Below, one piece after another: positions 37,344 to 53,684 of a DNA stretch of 64,000 bases (position 1 is the first letter of the stretch; each line of letters opens with the position of its first letter). The notes under the pieces are model-generated. The model saw only the letters and a list, made by a program, of their open reading frames with translations, made no database searches and was not told the origin of the DNA. The stretch spans positions 27,375,666-27,439,665 of the forward strand of contig OX485807.1 of NCBI GenBank assembly GCA_950295325.1, written 5' to 3'. The position numbers and the translations under genes were made by a program. The DNA comes from Polytrichum commune (lineage: Eukaryota > Streptophyta > Polytrichopsida > Polytrichales > Polytrichaceae).

Positions 37344-37832
37344 GTATGAATAAATTATGCGAGATTCAAACTTAGTTTAAGTATGTCATGTCACATCTTT
37401 AATTTAATTAAGTCGATTCATTGCATCACCAAGTCAACAATCTATACGTGTAGAAGGTCAATATTATGGACTTTTGAACTAGATTTGAGCGAGTTATAGC
37501 AACAAAAACATATTTAAGTAAAATTGAACTAAGTCCAAATCCAAAATTATAACATGTTGAATTCTAACATAGGATCTTACAATGGGATTGTATCATAAAA
37601 TTCTCTAGTAGAATATGCAGAGTTGATTATGATAATATCATAGCAGTTGTTTGCATTGTATTTTCACTAATCAACATTTATTTTAATATAACACTATATT
37701 CGTTAAATTGAGACTTTTTGGGCATTTTGAGACAATCACAGAAATAAGAACAAGGATAAATGGAACACATATTGGAGAAAGTTGTAAGATGCGAACACTT
37801 TGAAGCGGGTGTTTAGAACAAGAACCCCATTA

Positions 37833-38100
37833 ATAACTCATATTTGGGATTGTTTAGGGTGGGCAATCCAAACCTTAGGCCAAGTTGAAGGGGAAATCTT
37901 AAAACATTTATATTATCGCACAAAAACTTGTATGAATATGGTTTAGGTAGCGCAATCCAAACCATAGATCATATTGAAGGGGAAATATGTGAACCAATAT
38001 AATATAACATACAAAATATTCCAAACTCATATTTGTGATGGTTTAGGTAGGGCAATCCAAACCTTAGACCATATGGAAGGGGAAATCATGTGACACTTAT
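37833..38100. repeat. Three copies of a ~95-bp repeat with a 22-bp GTTTAGG...CCAAAC core
   Basis: 22-bp cores at 37852-37873, 37941-37962 and 38041-38062 read GTTTAGG(G/T)-(8-9 nt)-CCAAAC. Each is followed by CC(T/A)TAG, a CATAT(G/T)GAAGGGGAAAT-type word and a TATTAT/AATATAAT word. The core has the same length and outer bases as the 22-bp palindrome that fills 40-50 kb and may be a degenerate relative. Confidence 0.6.
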
Positions 38101-38228
38101 ATTATTGCAAAAAAAAACATACAAAGTGTGGCATGTAAAATGCATAGCATGCTAACACAACACATCCATTGGATAGTGCGACCCAAAATGTTCTTGCCTA
38201 TGGCCCAAAACCCTACGCCTACTATGGC

Positions 38229-39018
38229 CTATCTAGCCTCGCAGACTACCTCTTTTTCTTTTGCTTCATTTTCTTTTGCTTTTTTTTCTTTTGCCTCTTT
38301 TTCTTTTGCTCGCATTGCTTCAACATTCTTGAAAATCTCCGCCCCGCGACTATAGCCATTCTTGGGGTGACCGCCATCAATAACACATTTTGGATTCCGT
38401 CGGCCGCCCGAATTATACGACGAAGAATTCGAATACGATGAAGTGGACTGTCTTGCATTTCTGGTCATGGAGTAGAAACGCTCCAACTCGACGGACGTAC
38501 TAGCCCGCATAGGTTTACGGGTGGGAGCAACCTGCAACGTGTGAATGCAAGAACACACGTGTTAGTTTAGGGAGGAAGACCCAAATGTGTCACACGTTCA
38601 TTTTTTAAGTGCCGGATGATTGTAATGCGCGGTTAACCATGTTTTGGGGGGGGGGGGGGGTTCACCTTGTCACCGGGGGCGTTCCCGTCGGAGTTGGCGA
38701 GGAGGGGCAATGCGTCCCGCAAAGGAATAGGAAGGGTGCCACTCTTCGTAGGCCGAGCGTCCATCCGCAGCCGCCGTTGAGGTGTACTACTGCCGCCGGG
38801 CCGAGAGGGGGACGTCCGGACGCATTTGCGATTTATGCCCTTGAGCGGCGACGGGGACGGAGATCGCCGGAAGATTTGCTTGGGTGGGGGGCTATCGACG
38901 ACGCCGGCGTCAAGAGGCTCCTTGGAGTAGTTGATGGTGGACGCGGCATCGTAGACGGTCTCGTAGAAGAAGCTCCCCAAGTTTGATTCGCTGACGATGT
39001 CAATCGAGGCTCCAAACG
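38229..39018 (-). CDS. Two-exon C-terminal coding fragment, lysine/glutamate-rich tail
   Basis: Exons 39018-38666 (acceptor cccatcag, donor AAG|gtgaac) and 38531-38229 (acceptor cgttgcag) join in phase to about 217 codons. The first is Ser/Pro-rich (SNLGSFFYETVYDAAS, PPPKQIFRRSPSPSP). The second contains VAPTRKPMRAS, an Asn/Ser stretch, and ends in a KEKEAKEKKAKENEAKEKE tail. That tail is encoded by a pyrimidine microsatellite on the plus strand (38249-38311). A 5' exon with one leftover base is required but not identified. It may be the 3' end of the HAD-type gene just upstream by alternative splicing, or a separate element gene. No function is assigned. Confidence 0.45.
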
Positions 39019-39128
39019 CTGATGGGAAAATTAAAACAAACAAAACCCAAGGGGAGGGGGGAGCATGTGAAAATCGATATACAATTGAGGCATAATATAT
39101 CACACACAATGGCACACCATGTAGTATC

Positions 39129-41491
39129 TCAAATGAGTTTATTATATTTTGCGTGAGAGTACAACTCTCTGTACATATAGTCCTTCGGATCCATGTATCT
39201 TTCGCCTATCGGATTACAACTAAGGAACCGGGGCACGGGTAGTCCGCTCCCCACGAGCGTTTGAAGGTACTTAAGTAGGTCTAACAAAAAGCGGTCTCGG
39301 ACCTTCTCGACCGTCCACGTGGGGCAAACTATGAAGTTCGAGGTCGGGTTCAAAATGTTCTTGGAAGCGCTGTCGTCCACCATCAACGTGTTGTCACGGG
39401 TGGGACGAACGTCGTAGGGACAGCCGACCATGGTCGGACGCTGGTCCCATACGACTGGCTTCAAGACCTTAAGAAATTGGTTTACGGCGGGGTTGTTGGG
39501 CTTCTTCACAACCCTGCCCTCGGGGGTGTATAATGTTTTACAAGAATCTTGTCCTAGGACCAAGCACGGGGGTTGGAGTCCCTTGAAGATGAACTCCACG
39601 ACGGCCTGGGTGTTCTCGGACTTCATGGAGCTCCACACGATCACCCACCATTTGGATAGGGCGACCTGCAGGAAGCGCCGAAGCCACGGGCGGAGGTACA
39701 CTAGCTTGCTTTTGATGTACGCGGGGGGACCATCGTAGTTCCCGTCCTCGGGCTTGCAGAAAGGCACCGTGGGGACCTTGGGACAGTGCACGCACTGGAC
39801 GAGGACCCCGTTGAGGTCTAGCACCAGGAACCGTGTCTTGGGCGGCGGAGACGGGGAGGGCAAAATCGGGGGGACCACCGCGCTGTCCTCCACGCTCCTC
39901 GGGGAGGACCGGTGGGGAGCCACGACGCTATGCTCCGATCCCTGCGGCGACGAGCGAGAGAAGGCGGCGAGGACTATGTTATGCTATGTTTAATTCAAGC
40001 AGAACGGAAATTTTGTGCAAACACAAGAAGAATTGGACCATTGGTGGCAACAAAAATATACAAGGGGAACAACATACATTGGGACACGGATGCTAACATA
40101 TGGGCGCCAAAAATAATAATTTTATTGTTACAAATCTCTATGTACAATTTGAGGGGGGGGGGGCGCGGTGAACGAGGGCATTCACACTATCCTAATTGTA
40201 CATCTACAAAATTGGTTGCGCGCCGCCAAGGTTGAGCGTAGTCGAGTGAGGTGAGACGAAGGGGATCGCGGGGGGAGCACGTTGTTGGGTGCGTCGGGGG
40301 GTGTAGTTCCTCATAGCTAGGGGGGACAAGACCACGCCAACAAGACAATGACCAAGGAGGTTTGGGTCGGTCGACCCAAACTGGGAGGGCTCAGTGTGTT
40401 ACCTCGCCCTGGTCATGTCTCGACGATGTGGATGCCTCCACCGTCCCCGGTGCCCCATCTCTCTCGCCACCGCCTTCTCCGCCTACGTCAGGGACCTTGT
40501 CCTGCAAAGGTTGAGCATCAGGCCCTTGTCCTAAACCAATCTCCGCATATGCATCATGCATGGGTTCATCGATTTGGTTAGGATTAGAGGTATCACCAGG
40601 CCCTTGGAGGCCTTCAACATCTAACATGGTTGTGTCTCTTTGAGACACAAGTTCGTCAAGGGAGGATTGAGCTGCTCCGGGGTTTGGGTCGGGCGACCCA
40701 AACTGTCCTACATCGGGGGAGGCGCCTTGGGGCACTACAGTCGAGGGTGGGTTTGGGTCGGTCGACCCAAACATCCTGGGATCGTCCGGCTGGTGAGGGG
40801 GCGCCATCACTATGGGGGGTCGTAGTGGTGGAGGGCCCAACGGGGAGGAGGCTCCAGATACGCGCCAGATGTTGGGATCGTCCACTTGTTGGACCGGCGC
40901 GTACAGAACATGGGGCGGCCGCATCATGTGCTGGAAGCTGAATGACCCTTGCGACACTGGGTGCTGAGGGATGCTCTGCGCTGGGAAACCGGGGGGCAAG
41001 TGCGGAAACGAGCTGGATGGAGCCACCACCAATCCTTGCGCCCACATCCCTTGTATGACTTGCGATATCAAGTCGGCGCTGGATGGAGGTTGGGCCATCG
41101 CCCTTAGTCTTTCTTGTTCCAAGAGGAGAGCCCTCAGCTCTGCGACCTCGTTTCGCACGGAGGGTTCTTCCGCGGCAGCCCTCTGCAGGCGGACGCGCTG
41201 CTCCTCGTTGGCTTCCTCCACAGTGAGGACTTCGGGTTTCACCCTAACCATGCCTGCGAACGCTGTCGGGGAGGGGGGATCCGATCTGAGCCGTTTGGCA
41301 AGCTCAATGTCGTCGTCGTCCTCGCTGCTAATGGCAATGGTCTCCTCCAATGCGTAATCGCCATAGAGCTTCTTTCCCTTTAATTTCCTCCTCTCCCGGA
41401 ACGTGGCAGTCGCGTCCCTGGAGTACATGTCCCTCGCATCGTCCACCGTAAGGACGGGCATCATCTTACTCTGCGGGGTTGCCACACGCAT
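39129..41491 (-). CDS. Proline-rich linker plus FCP1/NLI-type HAD phosphatase-like domain
   Basis: Exons 41491-40403 (or an extension upstream, see the stop codon entry) and 39941-39129, joined in phase 0 across a 461-bp intron: about 633 codons. The first exon has a coiled-coil-like stretch (NEEQRVRLQRAAAEE) and a long Pro/Gln-rich part. In it two 22-bp palindromes are translated as FGSTDPN and FGSPDPN. The second exon is HAD-like: motif I FLVLDLNGVLV, motif II VIVWSSMKSENT, then VVWDQRP and motif IV NTLMVDDSASKNILNP. The second motif I Asp is Asn (DxN), as I recall for a plant NLI-interacting-factor subfamily, so phosphatase activity is uncertain. The intron holds a palindrome at 40360-40381. 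Confidence 0.6.
40360..40772. repeat. 22-bp palindromes, three copies (one intronic, two in coding sequence)
   Basis: 40360-40381 (centre GT), 40682-40703 (centre GG) and 40751-40772 (centre GT). Each has arm GTTTGGGTCG and complementary arm CGACCCAAAC. The first lies in the intron before the HAD exon. The other two lie inside the proline-rich exon and are read in frame without a stop. Confidence 0.9.
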
Positions 41492-41503
41492 AGCCTTCTT
41501 CCT

Positions 41504-41506
41504 CTA
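41504..41506 (-). other. In-frame TAG between the two minus-strand gene segments
   Basis: The upstream frame ends ...QESEAP, TAG, and the same frame runs on as RKKAMRVATP for another 370 codons. Only this one codon separates the segments. One base change from AAG would give PKRKK, a nuclear-localisation-like cluster. So this is probably a recent nonsense change in one long protein of roughly 1645 residues. An intron acceptor at the same place (ccccttag) is the alternative. Confidence 0.6.
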
Positions 41507-44500
41507 AGGGGCTTCGGATTCTTGCGTGAATCCCGTTGCCCCTTCCTCCACATCCCCCTCCTTTTCCTCCTCTCCGTGTTCTTCTTCTTCCTCCTCCTCT
41601 TCCACCTCTCCACCTCCTGTACGGGACGGATTGCCCGGATGCAACCCGACTAGAGGTTCGGGTAATTGGGTTGTTGCCCTCATCGCAATTTCTTCCGGGT
41701 TGATCTGCCTCGCCCTATCAAGAGGGTTCTCACCCCCCTCAACAACCTCGTCCACGTAGCTTCCCGGGATCCAATCGAGGATATCCATCTTCTTTGCCAG
41801 CGATTTCTGCGTCCTGTAAAATTGCAGATCGCTATCCTCTATGTACGAGTAGATGTTCAACCCCAACATCTACACAATCCAAGTTATATAGAAATTAGAA
41901 TTTGCAAGACAAAAAACAAGACCAAAAACAATATCTAGTTTGGGTCGACCGACCCAAACCAAGAGAGAGACTAGTTTGGGTCGACCGACCCAAACTGCGC
42001 AAGAGCTAAAGAATGTAACTTACCATGGCAGCATAGAGGGGTTTCGAGCCCCCGAACACGTTGAAGATACAGTCCCCTCTCCTAGTCAGCGTCCTCAGCA
42101 TCCGCATGTAGAATTCCATCCGCAGCTCATCTGCAGGATAGTTTGCGTATTTGGCCTCGTCGTATAGGCATTTGCTGGAACCTAACCCATCTGGAACTTG
42201 GAAGAGCTTGTCCATCCGGGATATAGGGTGGTTCGGCACCTTCAACAACTCCGCTTTGTACACGAAGTACAAACACAGGACGTTGACGACCTTGGTCTTC
42301 TTGTCCTTCAACGACGTGTAGGCCCCCTCCGCCGGTGCGGCGATGTAGTGAGACTTGGAGACTGCATACTCCGGCTGCAATTTCCGGACAAGGTCGTACA
42401 CCTGCTCCGCCCTCCTATCCTCGACTATCCATAGCCAGACATCAACCTCCCTGAACTTAGGACTCGCATAATCAACGAACTTAGATAGGAAGGGGTCGTA
42501 AAACAGTGTGCTCATCGTACCCTCAAATGAGCTTCCAGGAATGTTCCTGAAATCTATCATTCCGAATGGGAAACGCCCCCCTGCTTTCGTCCTTATCGCC
42601 ATTCTGGCGTCTTGACCTGGCCAGCCCTGAATTTTCAAAGGCTCGAAGGTGACAAGGTTGAAGTAAGCGTCCCCTTCAAACTGGACAATCTTCTTCTCCT
42701 TGATGAAATTCGAGAACGCACGCGCTGTGTGATCCGGAAGCGCCCGGTTCTTCCCACCCTTCACCATCTTGGCCCGCAAGAAGTCATCCCCCGCTTCCCT
42801 TATTAGAGCCGCCATGGAGGCACTGGTGAACTTATATTCAGCTTTAAATGCTCTCCAGTTAGCCTCATGAACCTCGCCGTCCACGACAATATTCCTCTCC
42901 GGCACCAATTTATGCAGCTCCTGCACTATAGTTGTCTTCTTTTTCCTATTCTCCGTCCATTCCTTCATGGTGTAGCATGAAGGGACGAAGGATTTGGGCT
43001 TTAAGAAGACAATCTTCGGGTGCACCCAGCACCTTTTCGCCGTGGGCGTGAAATGCAGGATGTACGCCGCCGCCTTCTCCATCTCCGTCTCGGAAAGGCC
43101 TTGAAGAGTTCTAAAGAACTCTTTCACGAGAGGCTTCATTTGTTTGAAGCGCGTGGTTTGGTTGAAGAAAATTCCTGTGTCCAGGTCGATGAGCTCACCC
43201 GTCTCATGCTTCTCAAATACACTCTTCCACTTCATCCAAACGGAGTCGGATGCTGTTATTAAATAAATCTCCCCTCTAAGCTCGTTGTATTTCTTCTGTT
43301 TGTGACTAGCATTATCAATGGAGGAGAATTTATTTATCATTTGGTATTTGAAGTCCTGCATGTGATCAAAACAATCATTTGAATGCATATTAGATATGAA
43401 CATGTGATTTCCAAAACATATCATGACCAGTGTCTGCACCAAGAGTTTGGGTCGATCGACCCAAACTAAAAAAACATGACTGCAACAAGAGTTTGGGTCG
43501 ATCGACCCAAACTAAAAAAACATGACTGCAACAAGACTTTGGGTCGAGTGACCCAAAGTACACAAATAAAGCTGCAAAAGGAGTTTGGGTCGATCGATCC
43601 AAACAATACTCACCTCCCACTTGGGATTCTTGTCCTTTGCATTCTCCCTCTCCTTGGGAGGCCTACCATAGAACTCCCACACCTCCCGCGAGGCCATGAT
43701 ATTCCTTATCCAGGAAGCTTGGTAGGCCCTTTTCTTATTCCCCATGTTAAAGTAACGGGAGATATCGCTCAATCGGGTCTCATCGTCAGACCACACCACT
43801 AGTGCCTTCCACACCTTCAACTTCTCCTTCTGATGGTTGGGATCGTCCCACTCAGTCATCAGTTGGATTTTCTTGGAAGCCTCAACACTGTGTTGGCCGT
43901 CTATGAGCCAAAAATCGCCTTTCTGAATTGTCGCCCACATTTCAGGGGTAGGCATTCTCTTCAGTCCCTGGGGCATCACTACAATGGTTTGCCTGTCCTC
44001 TTTGAATTGTTCGCTAACGATCTGCGCGATTATCCAATCGACGTAGGCGTTTTCTTTTGCCCGGACACATTTTTCTGGTGGCGCGAGATGACACTGACTG
44101 ATGTTCACGTCGAATTTGAAATCCCTGCCCATGAAAAAGCAATGGGAGCACTTGGTCGTGAAATTGTTCACGATTTTTTGGATCTCCCCTGCATCCACTT
44201 CCTGCCCTGGCTTCGGCATGCGCAATTCTGGAGAGACTGGCTCGTCAGTCATCACATATGACTCTCTCGCCCTCTTGGAAGGAGTTGTTTGGCGGCTGCC
44301 AGAAGGCGTAGGAGTCTGGCTATCCGCCGGTGTCTCCGATGGAGTGGTTCGTCTTGAGCTAGCCGGGACTGGTTGCGGCATCTTCACCGATTGAGGCCTT
44401 GACGACCCTGCACCTTCCTCAGTGGGTACCTTCCGCCTGACGGCTTGCTGAGACTTCGTTTTGCTCTGCAGGGCTTTGTTGAGCACGCTGATTGCATGCT

Positions 44501-44939
44501 TTAGTTTCGTAAACCGGCTCGAGACCTTTGTGTTCGATGTACTGGCATCGATGAAAATTGTCTCGGGTTTGATTACATCAGGTTCGACACATAACTCCCT
44601 TGCATATGTAGCGTCAAAGGGTTCGACGAACTGGTGCAGAAACATATGAGCATTCTGCACAGCGCTGTTCTCAAGGATGACGTCTGCGTAGTCTCCAAAA
44701 GACTGGACCGACGCCACCTCCCATCCCGTAAGAGTCGCCCAGGTATGTTTTTCCACGGTCCCTACTTTGACAACGAATATCAGTTTGTAAATGGAGGTTT
44801 TTACTACTTGAATTGACCAGGCGAGGACAAGCCCGTCCTTAGGGACATATGAGTCATCCTGAGGTGTTTCGTGCTCCTGCCATAACACGTCTGGCGCAAG
44901 CATGAACCACCTTTCTCCTGGTCTTTTCTTTGGGGCCAT
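41504..44939 (-). CDS. ParB-like domain fused to a methyltransferase-like region, 3 exons, 1007 aa
   Basis: Exons 44939-43614, 43355-42024 and 41869-41504, all phase 0. The ATG directly follows an acceptor (tttctttgcag), so a 5' leader intron is likely. Residues 1-240 are unrecognised and end in a Ser/Thr/Pro linker. About 272-365 look ParB/DGQHR-like: FDVNISQCHLAPPEKC, WIIAQI, then FWLIDGQHSVEASKKIQ. About 690-910 follow the order of a beta-class N4/N6 DNA methyltransferase: GMIDFRNIPG (709, where DPPY would stand), KFREVDVWLWIVED, SLKDKKTKVVNVLCLYF, then GDCIFNVFGGSKPLYAAM joined to MLGLNIYSYIEDSD, which matches the FxGxG...E.D motif I. The catalytic DPPY is absent, so activity is doubtful. 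The C-terminus is an acidic run. Introns hold four and two copies of the palindrome. Probably an element-borne gene. Confidence 0.65.
41938..41995. repeat. 22-bp palindromes, two copies in intron 2 of the ParB-like gene
   Basis: 41938-41959 and 41974-41995, both with centre AC and perfect 10-bp arms, 36 bp apart start to start. Nothing else fills this 154-bp intron except short AT-rich borders. Confidence 0.9.
43445..43604. repeat. 22-bp palindromes, four copies in intron 1 of the ParB-like gene
   Basis: 43445-43466 and 43491-43512 (centre AT, fully symmetric), 43536-43559 (variant ACTTTGGGTC with a 4-nt centre GAGT, but matching arms) and 43583-43604 (one mismatch). Spacing is 45-47 bp with a repeated ACATGACTGCAACAAGA spacer. 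The variant keeps pairing by matched changes in both arms. Confidence 0.9.
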
Positions 44940-44965
44940 CTGCAAAGAAAGAAGCAAGGATATTA

Positions 44966-45328
44966 GTTTCGGTCGTTCGACCCAAACTTCTTCACAATAG
45001 ATTAGATGTCACGTGATGGAAGGGAAATGTAATGCATCAACGCATTTATTTTTGGATTGTGTCTTGTTATTTTAGAACTTCATTTATATGTTTATATGGT
45101 ATTTCGTTATCTTGGGTGGATTTGCGTTTTATATTGTCATCAAGGATTTCTTGAAAAGTTTATACTGTAGAGGTTGCGTTTGGGTCGACCAACCCAAACA
45201 GCAGGATGTGCTTTGGGTCGATCGATCCAAACTATAGGCTGTGTTTAGGGTTTAGGGACCCAAAGCACATCGTGCTGTTTGGGTCGATCGACCCAAACTA
45301 TAGGCTGTGTTTGGGTCGTCTCCCCAAA
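44966..45328. repeat. 22-bp palindromes, four to five copies upstream of the ParB-like gene
   Basis: 44966-44987 (one mismatch, in the apparent leader intron), 45178-45199, 45211-45232, 45277-45298 (perfect, centre AT) and a degenerate copy at 45308-45328. The phrase AAACTATAGGCTGTGTTT recurs between copies. A degenerate GTTTAGGG...CCCAAAG copy lies at 45243-45265. Confidence 0.85.
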
Positions 45329-45780
45329 CTGTTCTATTTTAATATAGTTTTTTAAACTTGGCATGTAGCATATACAATGCTTATGCATTGTGTATGCTAC
45401 AACACTGTCAATTAAGAAACACATATTGGAACCCCTTGAAAAACAATACCTTTGCTGAGGGTTTCTGTTTTAGTCGTTGCAGATGGTTGCTTTTGAACAA
45501 GTGCTCTTCTTCGACTAAGACAGAATCAGTGAATTCCTATTCGCAGACACGCTAAAACTCACAAACAACTACCAAAGATTTCAAACCTTTCTTGAATCTC
45601 TCAATAAACCCACAATCTCTCACACAACTCCTGAGTCTCTTCATAATCACTCAAACAACAATTGTAACTCTCAAACAACAACTGAGTCTGTTAAAACAAC
45701 AACTAAATCTCTCAAAACAATAACTAAATCTCTGAAAGCACTTTTGTATCACTTTTGTATCTCTTATAGAACTTCCTAAT
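45329..45780. other. Upstream flank, no gene
   Basis: Contains repeated CTCTCAAACAAC/CTCTCAAAACAA words (45598-45740) grading into the CACTCACA tandem array. No credible coding sequence. Confidence 0.5.
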
Positions 45781-45965
45781 CTGACAACCACTCACAAGCA
45801 CTCACATGCACTCATAAGCACTCACATGCACTCACAAGCCCTCACATGCACTCACAAGCACTCACATGCACTCACAAGCACTCACATGTACTTACAAGCA
45901 CTCACATGCACTCACAAGCACTCACATGCACTCACAAGCACTCACATGCACTCATCCGCACTTCG
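45781..45965. repeat. 20-bp tandem array CACTCACAAG/CACTCACATG
   Basis: About nine alternating 10-bp half units (ACTCACAAGC, ACTCACATGC) run through 45790-45960. The His/Thr-rich open frame over the array is a consequence of the repeat. Positions 45966-46350 contain a purine-rich stretch (GAGAGAGAGAGAAAGGAGG) and no convincing gene. Confidence 0.85.
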
Positions 45966-46350
45966 AACTCTCGCAAGCACTGCCTAAAGCTCACACAGAA
46001 TGTTGGAAAACCCTTCAACAATCTGGAAAACACTTCAACAATGCTATATATTGCAACACTAGTGCAATCTCCCGCTACAGCAAGAGAAGGGAGGGAAGGA
46101 GAAGAAAAAAGGGTGGAGAAGGAATGTAAAGAAAAGCGCCACCCTGAATCGCCACGGCGCTTCAGGAGAGGCGGCGCTTCCACAAGAGGCGCGGAGCGAA
46201 AGGTTGGCGGGAGAGAGAGAGAGAAAGGAGGAGAATGCTTGGCGGCTGGGGTTTTGTTACCCTCGGGAATTGGCCCCCAACCGCGCGAATAGGGTGCCAA
46301 CGTGATTAGGGCAGCAACGGGAATAGGGTTACGGGGAACCCTAACTCCCA

Positions 46351-46834
46351 TCCCTCTAAGGAGTAAACCCTTAGCGGGTAGTACAATTTTGAATAGACTT
46401 TGGAGTAGCCTAAGGTATACATCAAATGAGGTATTCTAAAAAACTAAACCATTTATACAACTAATACATCTTTACAACGCAACTTTATGCTAACACTAAT
46501 ACTTAATTCCTACTTACATGACACCATTAACTAAATTTTCCAAACAAGTTGAAGTCATTGGTTTCTCGTTTGTTTGAGCACGTTATAAAAAAAATACAAT
46601 TACGTGCCAAATACAATAGACTTTACCATTGATGCCAACAACTCACACAATATGCAATGAATAAAAAAGACAATCCCCACCCCCCAACATGAAATTCGGA
46701 AATTGAGGATATTTGAATGTGGAGCCTAAATGAATACCTTCCCCAAGTGCATATTGTGAGGGTTTGGAATTGCATGATCTTTATTTCAAAATGCTAACAT
46801 GCTCAAGTTTTATAGGGTATCCCCTAGATATTCA
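46351..46834. other. No gene recognised
   Basis: AT-rich DNA with a C-run near 46677-46684. Nothing else was seen. Confidence 0.5.
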
Positions 46835-47665
46835 CTTTGATGAATCACATAGTCGCCAATAAACCATGGATCGTGATATATGTACTTGGAATGTGATATA
46901 AAAGCAAATCGGAGAACCACAACATCATATGAAGCCCTTCAAGCAATCATGTTGTTATTGAAGGTTCGCTCCAAGTATATTAGATAATGGCGCAAGACAA
47001 ACTTGATGTTGTTTGTATATGGAGGTAGCACTGAACAACTACAAGATTTGGGGTTTAGGGTTTAGGGTTTAGGGTTTAGAAGTCATGGTTATAACATATT
47101 AATCTATCCAATATTAACGTACAACATTGACTTACTGGTGAGAAGAGTCTTATAGGAAGGTTATAGTAAAGATGATGTTGAGTATGTTAAGTTGTTATTT
47201 GGGACGTTTAAACGTGATATACTAATTGGTCTTGTGTTTATTCAAATAGCATTTCATGTTGTGGATGTTATTAGGACTTAGGGGTCTAACTTTGGATGTT
47301 TTGCTCCCTTTGATGAATCACATAGTCGCCAATAAACTATGGTTCGTGATGTATTTAATATATGGAATGTGATATAAACGTAAATCGGTTAAGCACAACA
47401 TCAAATGAAGCCATGCAAGCAATCGTGTTGTTGTTCATTGTTCCCTCCACGTATATTAGATAATGGAGAAAGATATAAGAAATGTTGTTTATATATTAAG
47501 AAGAGTCTAATAGGAAGGTTATAGTGACCACAATCTTGATCATGTGAATATGTTATTTGGAACGTCTAAACATGATATACTAATTGGTGTATGGTTTAGT
47601 CAATACGTATAATTTCATGTTGTGGATGTTATAAGGGTTTAGGGTTCAACTTTGGATGTTTTGTT
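46835..47665. repeat. Tandem duplication, units ~473 and ~358 bp
   Basis: Unit 1 (46835-47307) and unit 2 (47308 to about 47665) both begin CTTTGATGAATCACATAGTC. They share GGAATGTGATATAAA, GTATATTAGATAATGG, AGAAGAGTCTxATAGGAAGG, GATATACTAATTGGT and TTTCATGTTGTGGATGTTAT. Unit 2 lacks the part that holds the TTTAGGG run in unit 1. Confidence 0.75.
47049..47078 (+). repeat. Interstitial telomere-type repeat (TTTAGGG)4
   Basis: Four perfect plant-type telomere heptamers lie within unit 1 of the tandem duplication. Two-heptamer versions occur at 47825-47841 and 48256-48272, each about 60 bp after the shared phrase CATTGCCACACTT(G/C)CATGCGAG. Confidence 0.85.
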
Positions 47666-48142
47666 CACACACATTAGTAAGCTTGAAGTGAACTTGAGGA
47701 TGGATTCAATTAGCATGGAAATATTGAACTAAAAAGCGACATTGGTAGTTAGTATCCCCTTATCGACGTCCACATACATTCGTCATTGCCACACTTGCAT
47801 GCGAGAGAAGAGGACAATATTGTAGGGTTTAGGGTTTAGGGATGACAACATATTATATATAAAAGCTCTTGTCACTTGCATTGTTGCAAATTCAGATTTG
47901 GAACAATAAATGAACTTTGTCATGACATAATTTGATTTCAAAATTAATAATTCCCCTTGCGAGGATCTTCATAACCACTTTAACTATTGTATTTAGTGAC
48001 TCTTACCATAAGGCGTTACACAATGTTTAGACTTCTTTTGTCTACATATTGGTTAATGCCATACCGTAATGTTTGAATTAAAGTAGATCAATATCATCAT
48101 TTAATATGTATATGATGCATTAGGGTGACATTGTAGAAGTTT

Positions 48143-48208
48143 TTGTTTGATCCATATATTAATTTGAGACTAGAGAAAGTCTGAATTTAACGAATATAGT
48201 GTTACATA
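48143..48208 (+). repeat. 66-bp direct repeat, left copy
   Basis: TTGTTTGATCCATATATTAA, then TTTGAGACTAGAGAAAGTCT and AATTTAACGAATATAGTGTT. It recurs at 53619-53684 with only one or two differences and the same orientation. The two copies bracket the palindrome array and the transposase-like gene. Confidence 0.85.
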
Positions 48209-48959
48209 CGTTTATCATTGCCACACTTCCATGCGAGATAATAGAGCAATGTTCTAGGGTTTAGGGTTTAGGGGAGACAAATAAATAATTTTATTCATCA
48301 TGACAATGGCCTCAAGCCTTGGAAACTCTCTCATAATTGCAGCCTCCAAATGGCCCCAACCCAACCGAAATAGGTTTGCACTTGAAAGCATTGAATGGAG
48401 TTGTGGTTGGGTATACATATTGGTTAAAATATACCGTTGTGACACTTGAAAAAATTAATGTGGCCGCCACCCTTCCTCCCAATGTCGTATGTCATATACA
48501 CACAAAACCAAAAAAAGATTAAATATCATAGACTAAATCATATGACGGCTGGGGTATGAGAGGGGCATTGAAAGATGCGCATTTTCTACAATAAACAGAA
48601 AACGGGGAATTCTGTCAGGAGGTTTGAAATAACAAGGCGGGAAAGGCATCCAATGAGGAAGTCGGGCAAGTGGAGGTGGATAGTATAAAGGGGCGCACCC
48701 CCCAAAAGTTGGTTTTTTTTTTGCTCTTCTCCCACTCCTGAATTTGTAGAGAGAACTCTTAGTCGGAGCTGTACTTCGAGGTTCGTTCATGCTGCTGTTC
48801 ATGAGGACCTATCCACAGCATGCAAGTCCGCAGTGAACTTTGCAATGAGCTGAAATTCCACACACCTCTCAATATCCGCTGCATTATACGCCGCATTATA
48901 CGTTGTATTATACGTCGATCGACACTAGTGTTGGCAGGTTCCAGTCTGACCCTTGTGAG

Positions 48960-49878
48960 GTTTGGGTCGGTCGACCCAAACCCCTCCAGTAGTGTGGGCG
49001 GGTTCTAGTCTCACCCTTGTGAGGTTTGGGTCGGTCGACCCAAACCCCTTCACTAGTGTTGGGGGGAGTCTACTCTGACCCTTGTGAGGTTTGGGTCGGT
49101 CGACCCAAACCCCTTCACTAGTGTTGGGGGGGGGTCTACTCTGACCCTTGTGAGGTTTGGGTCGGTCGACCCAAACCCCTTCACTAGTGTTGGGGGGGGG
49201 GTCTACTCTGACCCTTGTGAGGTTTGGGTCGGTCGACCCAAACCCCTTCACTAGTGTTGGGGGGGGGATCTACTCTGACCCTTGTGAGGTTTGGGTCGGT
49301 CGACCCAAACCCCTACCCCACTGTGGGCGTTTATCGTAAAACCTTTTAGAAGGTTTGGGTCGGTCGACCCAAACTTTTTCGCACATCGTGAACGAATTGT
49401 TAATGGCCCTTACCCAAGGTACTCAGAAGGTTTGGACGGACAGAGTAGGAACCTTATCCCATCATATGTAATGTTTGGGTCGAGCGACCCAAACCTCATC
49501 CCAGTGTGGGTGGATTTACACTGTGAAAGTTTGGGTCGACCGACCCAAACCCTTTCCCGGTGTGGGTGGACTTACCCTGTGAAAGTTTGGGTCGACCGAC
49601 CCAAACCCCTTCTGAGTGTGGGTGGGTTTACCCTGTGAAAGTTTGGGTCAGTCGACCCAAACCCCTTCCCCAGTTTCGGCGGTTGTAGTTGACCATGACA
49701 AGGATTGGGTCGGTCGACCCAAAGTTTTCCCCACAGTGTGATGGAATTCTAAATGGCCCTCAACCCATCATTGTACAAGGTTTGAGTCGGTCGACCGGAA
49801 CCCGACCCTATCCCACGGGCAAGGTGTGGATGGCCCTCAATCCCTGGTGCCACAGGGTTTAGGTCGGCCGACCCAAAC
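48960..49878. repeat. Palindrome-bearing satellite, 14 copies
   Basis: Palindromes start at 48960, 49024, 49089, 49155, 49222, 49289, 49353, 49473, 49529, 49585, 49641, 49703, 49780 and 49857 (22 bp each). The first seven are spaced 64-67 bp. Their spacer reads CCCTTCACTAGTGTTG, a G-run of growing length, then TCTACTCTGACCCTTGTGAG. Later copies have a 56-bp period with GTGTGGGTGGxTTTACxCTG spacers. The last three are degenerate. Centres are GT, AG and AC. Confidence 0.95.
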
Positions 49879-50078
49879 TCCCACCCAAAATATTTTGTGG
49901 AACATTTTGTGGACTGGCGCACAGTATTGGGAGCTCACATTGCATTTGTGTTGCAAATGTCTTGATCCTCAGTGTCCCCATTCATCGTGATGTTTTGCAT
50001 TTTCCAATATTTGATTCTTTTGGACCCTTACGTTGTGTCCATGTTTGTTGAGGTTTCATGTGCATGTGTGTAGGCGTA

Positions 50079-53000
50079 ATGGAGGGAGTTGGTGGAAGAG
50101 GGGATTCCTTCTCTGAAGACATGGGCAACACCCAATCTCTGTCTGGGGATGAGCTAGACATTGTCGGGGAGGATAGTTTTGATGACAGTGCAGATGAAGG
50201 TCATTTGGGGAGTCCTTCGCCATCTGACCCTTTTTGCCCCATTGTGGAATGTGCGGGGCTTTCACGAGCTTCATGGGTGAATTTGAATGTGGTACTTGTT
50301 AATGATAGTGGAGTTGTTGTGACGGAGGGTATTTGTCGTAACACACATCCACAAGATTGCATTGATGAACACCCCCTTGGCACCGAGGACGTTGGAGTTG
50401 TTATATTAGAATCACTCGTACATTCGGAAGTCAATCCAACTCATAGGTTCTCGTTGCGAAGGTGGCCGTTGAGGAATGTGACAATTGAGGGGGTTAGCTT
50501 GCGCGACCATGAGCGACAACACGTCCAAATCCAACAGGAGCTCCAAGCAAACATTCGGCCACGCAAAGGCCTTCGGAAGTACGAAACATTGACACGTCCT
50601 ACTCCGTCTGCAAATAAGTGTAAACGTCAAAGGTTGCTCTGTGAGGAGTCTATTAGAGAAGTTGCTACGAAGGATTGTTGTGTACATCGTTGTTGCCAAT
50701 TGTTCCCAAGAGATAAATTGAAGGCCATCCGTGAATAAATGTGGCTTGGAGATTTCCGTCTAAAATCCACCAAAAAATTTGATGTCCATAGGGCGATACA
50801 TGTGAACGGAGCGGGTCGCAAGGTCATCACCCTTGAGAGCATAGACGTGTGTTGTACGGCATGGTACACCATTCATGGTGTGTCGAAAGCGGAATTTTAT
50901 AGACAAGCCGCGTATGCCAATGAAGGCCGCCGTGCCCCTCACCATGGGAACATGGGCTTAAAGAAACCAAGAGAAGCAACGAGACAAGCAACAGCCACTT
51001 TGGCAACCATCATTGTCCCCCTTGCCGATGCAATGCCGCACAAAACACGCACACTCGCAACCGGTGAAAAGGTTGTGGAGAAGGTTCTTCCTACAGGCAC
51101 GAAATGGAAAGACATATTGTTGGACGTAAACGCAGTTGGCGAGAAGGCCGGGTTGGACCCAATTTCGTTGTCGAAACTGAGTGCTATAAAAAAATCTCAC
51201 TTTAGCGAATACATCACAAAAAGACGAGGCGACAAATTTGCCCGTTGTTCCAAATGCGAGAAGTTGAAACGCCTTCGAGATGCACACACGATGGGGACAG
51301 AGTCCTATGCCGCACATCAAATGAACTATTTCAAGCATATGAACATGCAAGAGGCACACCGTAATGATTACTACACAAATAGAGCTTTGTCCATCTCCAG
51401 GCCTTTGGAAGTCCTTACAATCATCTATGACAAGATGGACCATGCCAAAACAGCCTCACCATGTTTTGCAAATCGAATCAAAGCCACGGACGGCCTTTTT
51501 AAGCTTCCTGTTTCGGTTACAGGTGATTTTGATAACAATTGCATTGCATTACCTAAACACAAATTTGTGCGTTTAGGTTTGTACTTGGGGCCATACATGT
51601 ACACCATGTGAATTTTTTGGTGTTATAGTTGAATATTAAACCATTGGGTTGCCTTTGCAGGAATGATTGCACATGGGCATGGTGATGTCAAATATGCTCA
51701 TTATGCTCTTGATTTGTATCCGGCGGATTCAAACCACACGATAGGGTCATTTGCAAAGCTTTTATGTGATTTGGAGAAACCGCCGTCCTATTCATCAAGA
51801 TTGTTATTTGAAAACTCGGGATCAACACCTCTATATGAAGCGGTCTTGGATGGAAGAGATGTATGCGTGCATTCATTGCCGGAGCCACCAAGTGAAGATG
51901 TGATTGCCAAGAATTTGCCCCCAACTCTGCGTGTTCAATTGGACAATTGTACGAAGGACAATAAAAGTAGATATGTTTTTGCATATTGGTCGTTGTTGGT
52001 TGCGAAAGGCATTTTCAATGAGGTTTTTGTGTCCTTTCTATTGGTAGGCCACACGCACGATGATATTGATGCGTCCTTTGGACGGTGGAGCATGAAGTTG
52101 CGCGAGGAGGATTTTCCAACAATCCCATTGTTGATGAAGTCGTACATGGATTTGGAGAACATTCCCGTCATCCCCCATATGATCGAGGAGGTTCCAGACT
52201 TCAAGGCATTTATAGAACCGTATATTCGAAGCGGAGCTCACCGATTGATCGGGCATACGAAGGCACAACAATTTCGGTTCTACGTGCGTGACGATGGTGT
52301 CCCCGCCATGCAATACAAGTTGTTGTGCACATCACAAGACTGGAGCCCGCCGGAGGGTCTCCTTGTATGGCGTGTTGATGGGGAAAGAAGGACGATGTTG
52401 CTTGACGGAGAGCCTAAGCCTTGCAAACCAATACCCATGAAGAATTTAGAGGACATTTGTAAAGGCATATCAGGCTTCATACAATATTGGGAGAGTTTGA
52501 GGGTAGCGGATGTTGGTGGATCGTGTTGGCTTCGTTACGGAAGTTGGATACAATATTGGACACGTGTTCGTGGCGCTTTGGCAAACCTTCATCAAGATAC
52601 ACCCCTTACTTTAAGGCATGGGTTTTGGCCACAAACACGTGTCAATGTACAAGCTTCGGAGGCTAGTCTTTTGGGAAATGGAGAGGTTCGAGAGGAGTTT
52701 GATGTGGACGACCATTACGTGGGGCCTGCTAGTAGTCGTCCGCCACCATCTTTCCGCATTGCAGTGGATTGTCATGAAGGTTATATGCTCATTTTGCGTC
52801 CTGGAGATGAGACATATGCAAAGCCAGTGTGGGTGGCAAGAGCTTTGTCCAAACCAAATTTTGTAACTTCCAGCCCTCATTTTCGACAAATACAAGTAGA
52901 GTACTACCGACCGACAGCACGGAATGAAGATGTTGTTCGGCATTATACAGGCTGGGATACAAACCCTAACTTTCGGTGGAAGGTGGATTCTGAGCATGGT

Positions 53001-53147
53001 CCATCTTGGGTAGATACAGATTCCATATTCATAGCATGGAAACCACGGAAAAATCATAGTGGATCAGTGTCCATCCCTCAAAAGTACATAACTTTTGCAA
53101 AAGACAACCTTGCTCGGATCGCAGAAGAAGCAACCCACGTTGAATGA
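50079..53147 (+). pseudogene. Transposase-like protein (GHTHDDID type), two exons, one in-frame stop
   Basis: Exons 50079-51576 and 51661-53147 with an 84-bp intron. A TAA at 50736-50738 interrupts exon 1, but the same frame continues at once (MWLGDFRLKS) for a total near 995 codons. Order: acidic N-terminus (SGDELDIVGEDSFDD); Cys cluster DCCVHRCCQLFPRDKLKAIR; a second Cys pair ARCSKCEKLKRLRD; then TLRVQLDNCTKDNKSRYVF and FVSFLLVGHTHDDIDASFGR. The DN...GHTHDDID pattern is the signature I associate with DUF7869 proteins, an RNase-H-like transposase-type group spread as repeats in mosses and invertebrates. The stop lies within the zinc-binding part, so this copy is probably disabled unless read through. 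ATG at 50058 is also possible. The palindrome satellite lies just upstream. Confidence 0.65.
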
Positions 53148-53618
53148 GAAGTTGGTAGGATTGTGTTAGCATGATTATAGTGTAAACTGTAATTCGACGA
53201 ATATATATTACTCATATGTGTGCTCCTCAAACTTGGGGCAAAGTTTGGGTAGAACTTGCGAATGCTATATTGTTTGGGGTTGGATGAATATCCATTTACT
53301 ATATTTCAATACAGTTGTGAAGTTCATTTTTTTTATTAAGTTTGGGACTAAATTTTCCATTGAAGAAAAATGCATTTATTGCATGCACTTTGTATGTTGC
53401 AATGTCTATATTTGATTGACCATGCTAATAATAGAAATCATTTTATATGTTTCTTGGGTGAAACTAGTTTGGAGTGCTCTACCCAAAGTGTTTTTGTAGA
53501 TGAAGTTGGTGTTGAGTGCTCTACCACATGTGCTTATGTCCACACATAATAGATTTGGGATATTAGAACATATAATATATTTGAGATCGTTCTCAATATA
53601 GTTTCGGAACACGGAATG

Positions 53619-53684
53619 TTGTTTGATCCATATATTAATTTGAGACTAGAGAAAGTCTCAATTTAACGAATATAGTGTTATATA
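53619..53684 (+). repeat. 66-bp direct repeat, right copy
   Basis: Partner of 48143-48208; the match begins TTGTTTGATCC and ends GTGTTATATA. Flanks differ outside the 66 bp. The copy lies 470 bp beyond the end of the transposase-like gene. Confidence 0.85.

Follow-up and report, generated by a model that had tools for sequence, protein, structure and literature searches.

What is a spliced gene that seems to combine a ParB-like domain with a decayed DNA methyltransferase doing in the genome of a land plant? The question is raised by a stretch of 64,000 nucleotides of Polytrichum commune (GenBank assembly GCA_950295325.1, contig OX485807.1, positions 27,375,666 to 27,439,665 of the forward strand), which is referred to in its whole length as the window. 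A preliminary description of this DNA assigned positions 41504-44939 to a plant gene of that kind, and the peptides quoted in it are indeed encoded there, on the minus strand. The gene does exist, though not as a gene of the host. It is the accessory gene of a DNA transposon of about 16 kb, and the reading as a host plant gene is rejected because the gene is contained in a repeat that is flanked by target duplications and has inverted ends, of which hundreds are present in the genome.

The window holds a complete copy of the transposon (Table 1). Terminal inverted repeats of 28 bp and a 4-bp target duplication were found in all four copies in which both ends were read, the duplications being ATAT in the window copy and TTAC, TCAT and AAGG in the three further copies. 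The first 25 nt of the transposon end occur exactly 676 times in the genome (333 forward and 343 reverse), and a reversed-pattern control gave 0. On contig C1, which has 91 ends among the matches listed, 35 convergent neighbours are less than 50 kb apart, and 21 of these 35 are spaced at 14-19 kb. A 301-base piece gave 40 scored matches with 91-100% identity, out of 389 candidates. Ten stretches from six places in the genome are colinear with the window over the extent compared, except that the match of one (L005) ends at 40331 and that another copy (L006/L010) is interrupted in places. The element is abundant and apparently recently mobile. Its candidate transposase gene, colinear in other copies, has 1,491 candidate places in the genome, of which 150 were scored, all above the cut-off, and none in 14 control genomes; from the domain, position and abundance of the encoded DUF7869 protein we infer that it is the transposase.

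Splicing of the accessory gene had been proposed at the outset, and the exon joins are sound. Among the copies listed, fragmentary ones being excluded, the donor of intron 1 reads GTGAGT, GTAAGT or GTGAGC in 27 of 27 and that of intron 2 reads GTAAGN in 23 of 24, while exon lengths are kept (in all 16 further copies for exon 1 and in 14 of them for exon 2) and intron lengths vary. The predicted three-exon model holds. The proposed gene end at 41504 is correct for the window copy, which has a stop there, but does not apply to the 16 other copies compared (Table 1). Read in its own frame in those 16 copies, exon 3 reaches a shared end at 498-499 residues in eight, and ends early, at 140-467 residues, in the remaining eight; with the shared end, the full protein has approximately 1,384 residues (442 + 444 + 498). 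Intact and broken copies of the gene coexist in the genome: among the genome matches listed, no stop interrupts exon 1 in 71 of 96 or exon 2 in 75 of 95, the best of 1,135 and 1,227 candidates, respectively, having been scored. More divergent relatives exist as well. A codon pattern for WLIDGQH that leaves out the codons of this subfamily occurs at 190 places in the genome (control 0), and 14 loci chosen from these for their divergence are all relatives of the window gene according to tblastn. In 12 of the 14 each of the three exons has a match, in some cases a broken one, and the eight exon-1 matches of full length show 77-84% identity. Three copies lying about 84 kb apart (G000:C3:10601864, 10685639 and 10769481) each contain one TGA in exon 2 and may have arisen by segmental duplication; in L003, a copy on C4, and in L015 this codon is likewise a stop.

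The accessory gene is under purifying selection, which is strong between subfamilies. Comparison of the window copy with nine members of a second subfamily (L006, L013-L020) by the Nei-Gojobori method gave ratios of nonsynonymous to synonymous divergence (dN/dS) of 0.06-0.09 for exon 1 (dS 0.52-0.76), 0.08-0.12 for exon 2 and 0.09-0.19 for exon 3. The open reading frame (ORF) that continues exon 3 is looser, with dN/dS of 0.15-0.32 and indels in some copies.

The same element is marked by a 20-bp palindrome, TTTGGGTCG-NN-CGACCCAAA, which has 9,731 exact sites in the genome and none in the reversed control. The window contains 18 exact palindromes, or 26 if two mismatches are allowed, whereas 100 shuffles gave none, and all 50 half-sites of the window lie inside the element. 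Intron 1 carries at least one exact palindrome in each of the 23 copies examined (1 to 6 per copy), and 36 of the 37 sequences counted hold at least one, L026 having none. Among the first 100 of the 9,731 sites listed, 81 fall in three elements of the window family (two with exact ends on both sides and one with a single exact end), 14 in a different repeat family (L035/L036) and 5 elsewhere. No exact palindrome was found in viral contigs. The two central bases are never pyrimidine-purine among 304 exact sites in 37 sequences, and genome-wide such centres account for 38 of the 9,731 sites, all CA/TG. Since many other centres occur (AT, GT/AC, AG/CT, TT/AA, GG/CC and GC) and pyrimidine-purine ones hardly at all, the pattern speaks for a structural constraint on the dyad of what would be a dimeric binding site.

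What the protein may have descended from is a matter of two resemblances, both weak but non-random and in the expected order. The ParB-like domain of the preliminary description is probably right, with weak support. Residues 240-442 of exon 1 were aligned with ten ParB domains of phage, viral-contig or contaminant origin, whereby DFWLIDGQHSVEASKKI falls on the G-x-R motif and the alignment runs on to the ENI motif; the score is 18.8 with the whole target and 18.3 with the cut target, and 1 of 100 and 4 of 300 shuffles were as good (5 of 400 together). WLIDGQH is found in 11 of 12 aligned copies, and WLIDGQY in the remaining one. On the other hand, the Pfam ParB profile (PF02195) matches none of the 12 aligned members of the window family. 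A tblastn search of phage and plasmid collections with exon 1 gave no match at E up to 1, and peptide patterns from exons 1 and 2, two each, confirmed no relative in viral contigs. AlphaFold2 was uninformative, with a mean predicted local distance difference test (pLDDT) score of 34.8 for exon 1 (12 aligned copies) and 34.9 for exon 2 (11 copies).

The methyltransferase-like fold is likewise probably right and weakly supported. In profile-profile comparison, the end of exon 2 together with exon 3 aligns to the motif I (SAM-binding) region of 12 N4/N6 methyltransferases, again of phage, viral-contig or contaminant origin, with YANYP...RRGDCIFNVFGGSKPLYAAMMLGLNIYSYIED facing HPTGKP... (score 25.7, probability 6.6%). 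This score was matched by 1 of 500 column shuffles (0 of 100 and 1 of 400), and the alignment was reproduced with three contaminant methyltransferases at a score of 18.2. Contrary to the earlier claim that the match appears only after splicing, exon 2 alone scores 25.2. FNVFGG is present in 14 of 15 copies; in the exon 2 alignment it occupies 10 of 11 rows, the eleventh being cut. Motif I of active methyltransferases carries G-x-G, which the FNVFGGSKP of the window family does not, and the catalytic motif IV, [DNS]PP[YFW], was found in none of the 15 copies. Some subfamilies, though not the window copy, have a loose STPF or GTPF close to where motif IV would be expected. The Pfam N4/N6 methyltransferase profile (PF01555) matches none of four spliced members of the window family.

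Table 1. Features of the transposon, its genes and its palindromes (window positions).
Feature	Position	Strand	Remarks
Complete DNA transposon copy	37690..53679	.	ATAT duplicated at 37686-37689 and 53680-53683
Left terminal inverted repeat, AACACTATATTCGTTAAATTGAGACTTT	37690..37717	+	28 bp
Right terminal inverted repeat	53652..53679	-	28 bp
Second accessory ORF, NIF/FCP1-like phosphatase domain	39129..39983	-	Pfam PF03031, 3.3e-14
Palindromes in the C-terminal coding frame and immediately beyond it	40361..40771	.	
Continuation of exon 3 in other copies	40391..41503	-	Low-complexity C-terminal tail, partly palindrome-encoded (FGSTDPN)
Accessory gene, exon 3 to the stop of the window copy (41504-41506)	41504..41869	-	Stop missing from 16/16 other copies
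Accessory gene, intron 2	41870..42023	-	Contains two palindromes
Palindromes in intron 2	41939..41994	.	
Accessory gene, exon 2	42024..43355	-	444 aa; degenerate methyltransferase motif I FNVFGGSKP at its end
Accessory gene, intron 1	43356..43613	-	GT-AG; contains palindromes
Palindromes in intron 1	43446..43603	.	
Accessory gene, exon 1	43614..44939	-	442 aa; ParB/DGQH-like motif at residues 343-358 (FWLIDGQHSVEASKKI)
Palindromes directly upstream of the accessory gene	44967..45297	.	
Palindrome array upstream of the candidate transposase	48961..49877	.	13 sites with at most 1 mismatch, mostly 56-67 bp apart
Candidate transposase gene, DUF7869 domain	50052..53147	+	Three ORF pieces; Pfam PF25273, 4.5e-41; colinear in other copies

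The second accessory ORF is also under purifying selection, with dN/dS of 0.12-0.23 against the six full-length copies of the second subfamily. Its dS in these six, 0.10-0.14, falls below that of the accessory gene, which reaches 0.76, and so low a divergence between subfamilies suggests an exchange of modules. Internally, the element repeats 66 bp of its right end (97%) without a change of orientation (48143-48208 against 53619-53684), as do the L007, L008 and L009 copies, which perhaps reflects a past fusion of elements. A tandem array of a 10-bp unit (CTCACAAGCA / CTCACATGCA) is present at 45789-45954, upstream of the accessory gene, and a WRKY gene is also found within the window.

Other repeats of the genome enlarge the picture. 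The palindrome of the window element is carried by a different repeat family, represented by L035 and by L036 (G000:C1:2153000-2161999) with L037. Apart from palindrome-encoded bits of the accessory tail (E 0.002-0.005), tblastn detects nothing related to the window transposase or the accessory protein in the 9-kb pieces L035 and L036, and L036 carries a second palindrome array, CCCTGTGCGTTAACGCACAGGG. By eye the transposase of this family is Mutator-like (MULE-like), and Pfam is silent on it. In L036/L037, FFIWDGNHRFFAWKNYI is encoded by one exon, and VDLVFLQFPDG and VVDLTCSTGASILATRACGRHLLAFEGD by exons that come after it; going by these motifs only, the gene would encode a DGNHR-motif protein with a degenerate methyltransferase, and Pfam is silent on these pieces as well. 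Clearer methyltransferases are found in a repeated ORF of 577 residues (L042:1427-3160 and L043:1579-3312) that matches Pfam N6_N4_Mtase with E-values of 1.1e-7 in L042 (profile positions 1-216 of 221) and 1.5e-8 in L043 (best stretch 163-216). Its motif IV reads VDIPYG or VDIPDG. DIPY, which is found in one copy and also in two of the phage methyltransferases compared, suggests that this copy is possibly active. A profile of L042, L043, L037 and L044 matches the 12 methyltransferases used above at 98.15% (E 6e-14). The palindrome is absent from the L037-L044 pieces, which are short. Genome-wide, Pfam N6_N4_Mtase gave 118 matches at E up to 10, some of them on small contaminant-like contigs, and ParB (PF02195) gave four, all on the small contigs C10, C12 and C23. 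These three contigs (G000) have bacterial or phage-like genes and are apparently contamination of the assembly; examples from small contigs are L045, in which ParB and methyltransferase are fused, and L047, a methyltransferase ORF that an apparent intein interrupts.

What would account for a selected transposon protein with decayed catalytic motifs together with thousands of dimeric sites in the regulatory DNA of the element? Self-recognition would explain the combination best, and the account towards which we lean, tentatively, is that of a transposon protein derived from a ParB-methyltransferase, which binds the palindrome, marks the copies of its own element and keeps them expressed or mobile. 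The accessory protein would descend from a fusion of ParB with a DNA methyltransferase, and the loss of recognisable catalytic motifs suggests that its methyltransferase half is more likely to bind DNA than to modify it. The anatomy and copy number of the element, the structure of the gene, its purifying selection and the abundance and centre rule of the palindrome are shown, while the two domain assignments are weakly supported. We infer that the palindrome is a dimeric site bound by the protein, alone or as part of a complex, and the consequences of binding would follow from there: the bound protein may tag the element's own copies, most simply by opposing host silencing, as VANC does for VANDAL elements, with control of transposition as the next likeliest purpose.

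Several observations weigh against this account. Within the window's own subfamily dN/dS is higher, 0.24-0.57 for exon 1 and 0.15-0.34 for exon 2, against seven close copies and on few changes. The palindromes of related copies are inherited, and their counts are neither independent events nor a probability. The protein has no credible match in Pfam, NCBIfam or PDB sequences, and its motif I is not invariant, reading FNVFGR in L025. The equivalent of DPPY that had been proposed at IDFRN found no support: when the region before motif I was compared by profile with the DPPY half, 75 of 100 shuffles were equally good. The window family has no significant alignment to the DGNHR family, whose own assignment to ParB by profile also failed, with 54 of 100 shuffles equally good. 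Nor does it align significantly to the genome's clearer methyltransferase families, so that neither direct homology nor common descent can be claimed; L042 and L043, which are short pieces, hold no palindrome.

Three other explanations have to be considered. Firstly, the palindromes may be bound by the transposase or another element protein, with the accessory protein assisting in transposition or replication, say. The largest palindrome array does lie just upstream of the candidate transposase gene, and the TnpA sites of En/Spm elements are repeated too, but the palindromes extend into the introns and coding sequence of the accessory gene, for which reason among others we consider this explanation unlikely. 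L035/L036, which have the palindrome and no relative of the window transposase, also speak against it, albeit with little power to discriminate, as a relative of the accessory protein is equally missing there. Secondly, the resemblance to ParB and methyltransferases may be due to chance, or be too remote to be meaningful, in which case we would be dealing with a lineage-specific transposon protein without a recognised fold. The silence of Pfam and NCBIfam, the unrecognised DPPY half and the low confidence of both AlphaFold2 models (mean pLDDT of about 35) agree with this; however, the two motif matches come in the expected order and are rare among shuffles (1/500 and 5/400), FNVFGG is kept in every aligned row but the cut one (L025, which differs, lies outside the alignment), and a clear N4/N6 methyltransferase family exists among the repeated genes of the genome, so we judge it rather improbable. 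Finally, an active DNA methyltransferase that is guided by the ParB-like part and marks the element with N6-methyladenine or N4-methylcytosine, in the way suggested in the passage on the Ectocarpus protein (PMC12477816), would suit the strong selection between subfamilies and the loose STPF or GTPF of some of them, but is very improbable in view of the missing [DNS]PP[YFW] in 15 of 15 copies, a motif I lacking G-x-G and a motif IV region without support from profile comparison.

Self-recognition by the accessory protein may also be part of something wider. Two different repeat families, one with the DUF7869 candidate transposase and one with a MULE-like transposase, share the palindrome, and each appears to have a protein with a ParB motif and a decayed methyltransferase, in the second family by motifs only. 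A portable module comparable to ParB-parS, with which unrelated transposons would label copies of themselves and so escape silencing, is conceivable on these grounds, and we regard it as a doubtful proposition.

With regard to known systems, the order of ParB followed by an N4/N6 methyltransferase is the same in a Desulfofustis phage protein (WBK39746.1) and in the contaminant ORF L045, the latter being, unlike the window gene, a single ORF with an intact DPPY and clear Pfam matches. Among transposons, CACTA (En/Spm) elements come to mind, since the ends of the window element read AACACTA and its internal sites are repeated. The target duplication of CACTA elements is 3 bp, however, and membership is ruled out by the 4-bp duplication in four of four copies; the candidate transposase, moreover, matches DUF7869 only. 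A 4-bp target duplication would fit Sola elements.

The arrangement of the palindromes finds its closest parallel in the VANC proteins, anti-silencing proteins of Arabidopsis VANDAL elements according to two papers (PMC5735166, PMC10398659). VANC21 motifs are described in the introns of VANC21 and VANB21 and upstream of VANA21, often as tandem repeats (PMC5735166). Both systems have a transposon accessory protein and a short motif, often in tandem arrays, that lies in the introns of the accessory gene and upstream of the transposase. In contrast to VANC, the window protein has no DUF1985, as far as Pfam scans go, or other credible Pfam domain, and the sites are YAGTATTAY for VANC and a 20-bp palindrome here.

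The protein itself is most like that of Sola1-1_Ec32, a 21.5-kb element of the brown alga Ectocarpus that encodes, on the strand opposite to its transposase, a protein of 1,104 residues with ParB-like and N4/N6 methyltransferase parts; similar proteins are reported from transposons of green and red algae in the same passage, whose authors propose that the transposon may be bound and epigenetically modified by the protein it encodes, the passage naming no site (PMC12477816). The preliminary description regarded a spliced ParB-methyltransferase fusion in a plant as unusual. This needs to be qualified by the algal transposon versions already reported in that passage, and no land-plant report of a transposon-borne one was found among the top 8-15 literature matches listed per search, a scope that leaves most subscription papers outside. 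As in Sola1-1_Ec32, a large DNA transposon carries, opposite to the inferred transposase, an accessory gene with ParB-like and N4/N6 methyltransferase-like parts, and the protein is of similar size (about 1,384 residues). The moss element differs in having a land plant as host, in the much stronger degeneration of its methyltransferase and in its documented palindrome array; the candidate transposase matches DUF7869, and the likeness to the Ectocarpus protein is one of description. What it adds is an explicit candidate site, with some ten thousand copies in the genome and a strict centre rule, next to a protein under strong selection, and this makes the proposal of the Ectocarpus authors testable by ordinary binding and methylation assays. 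If self-recognition through the palindrome is true, the ParB-methyltransferase class of algal transposons would extend to land plants and be linked to anti-silencing of the VANC type.

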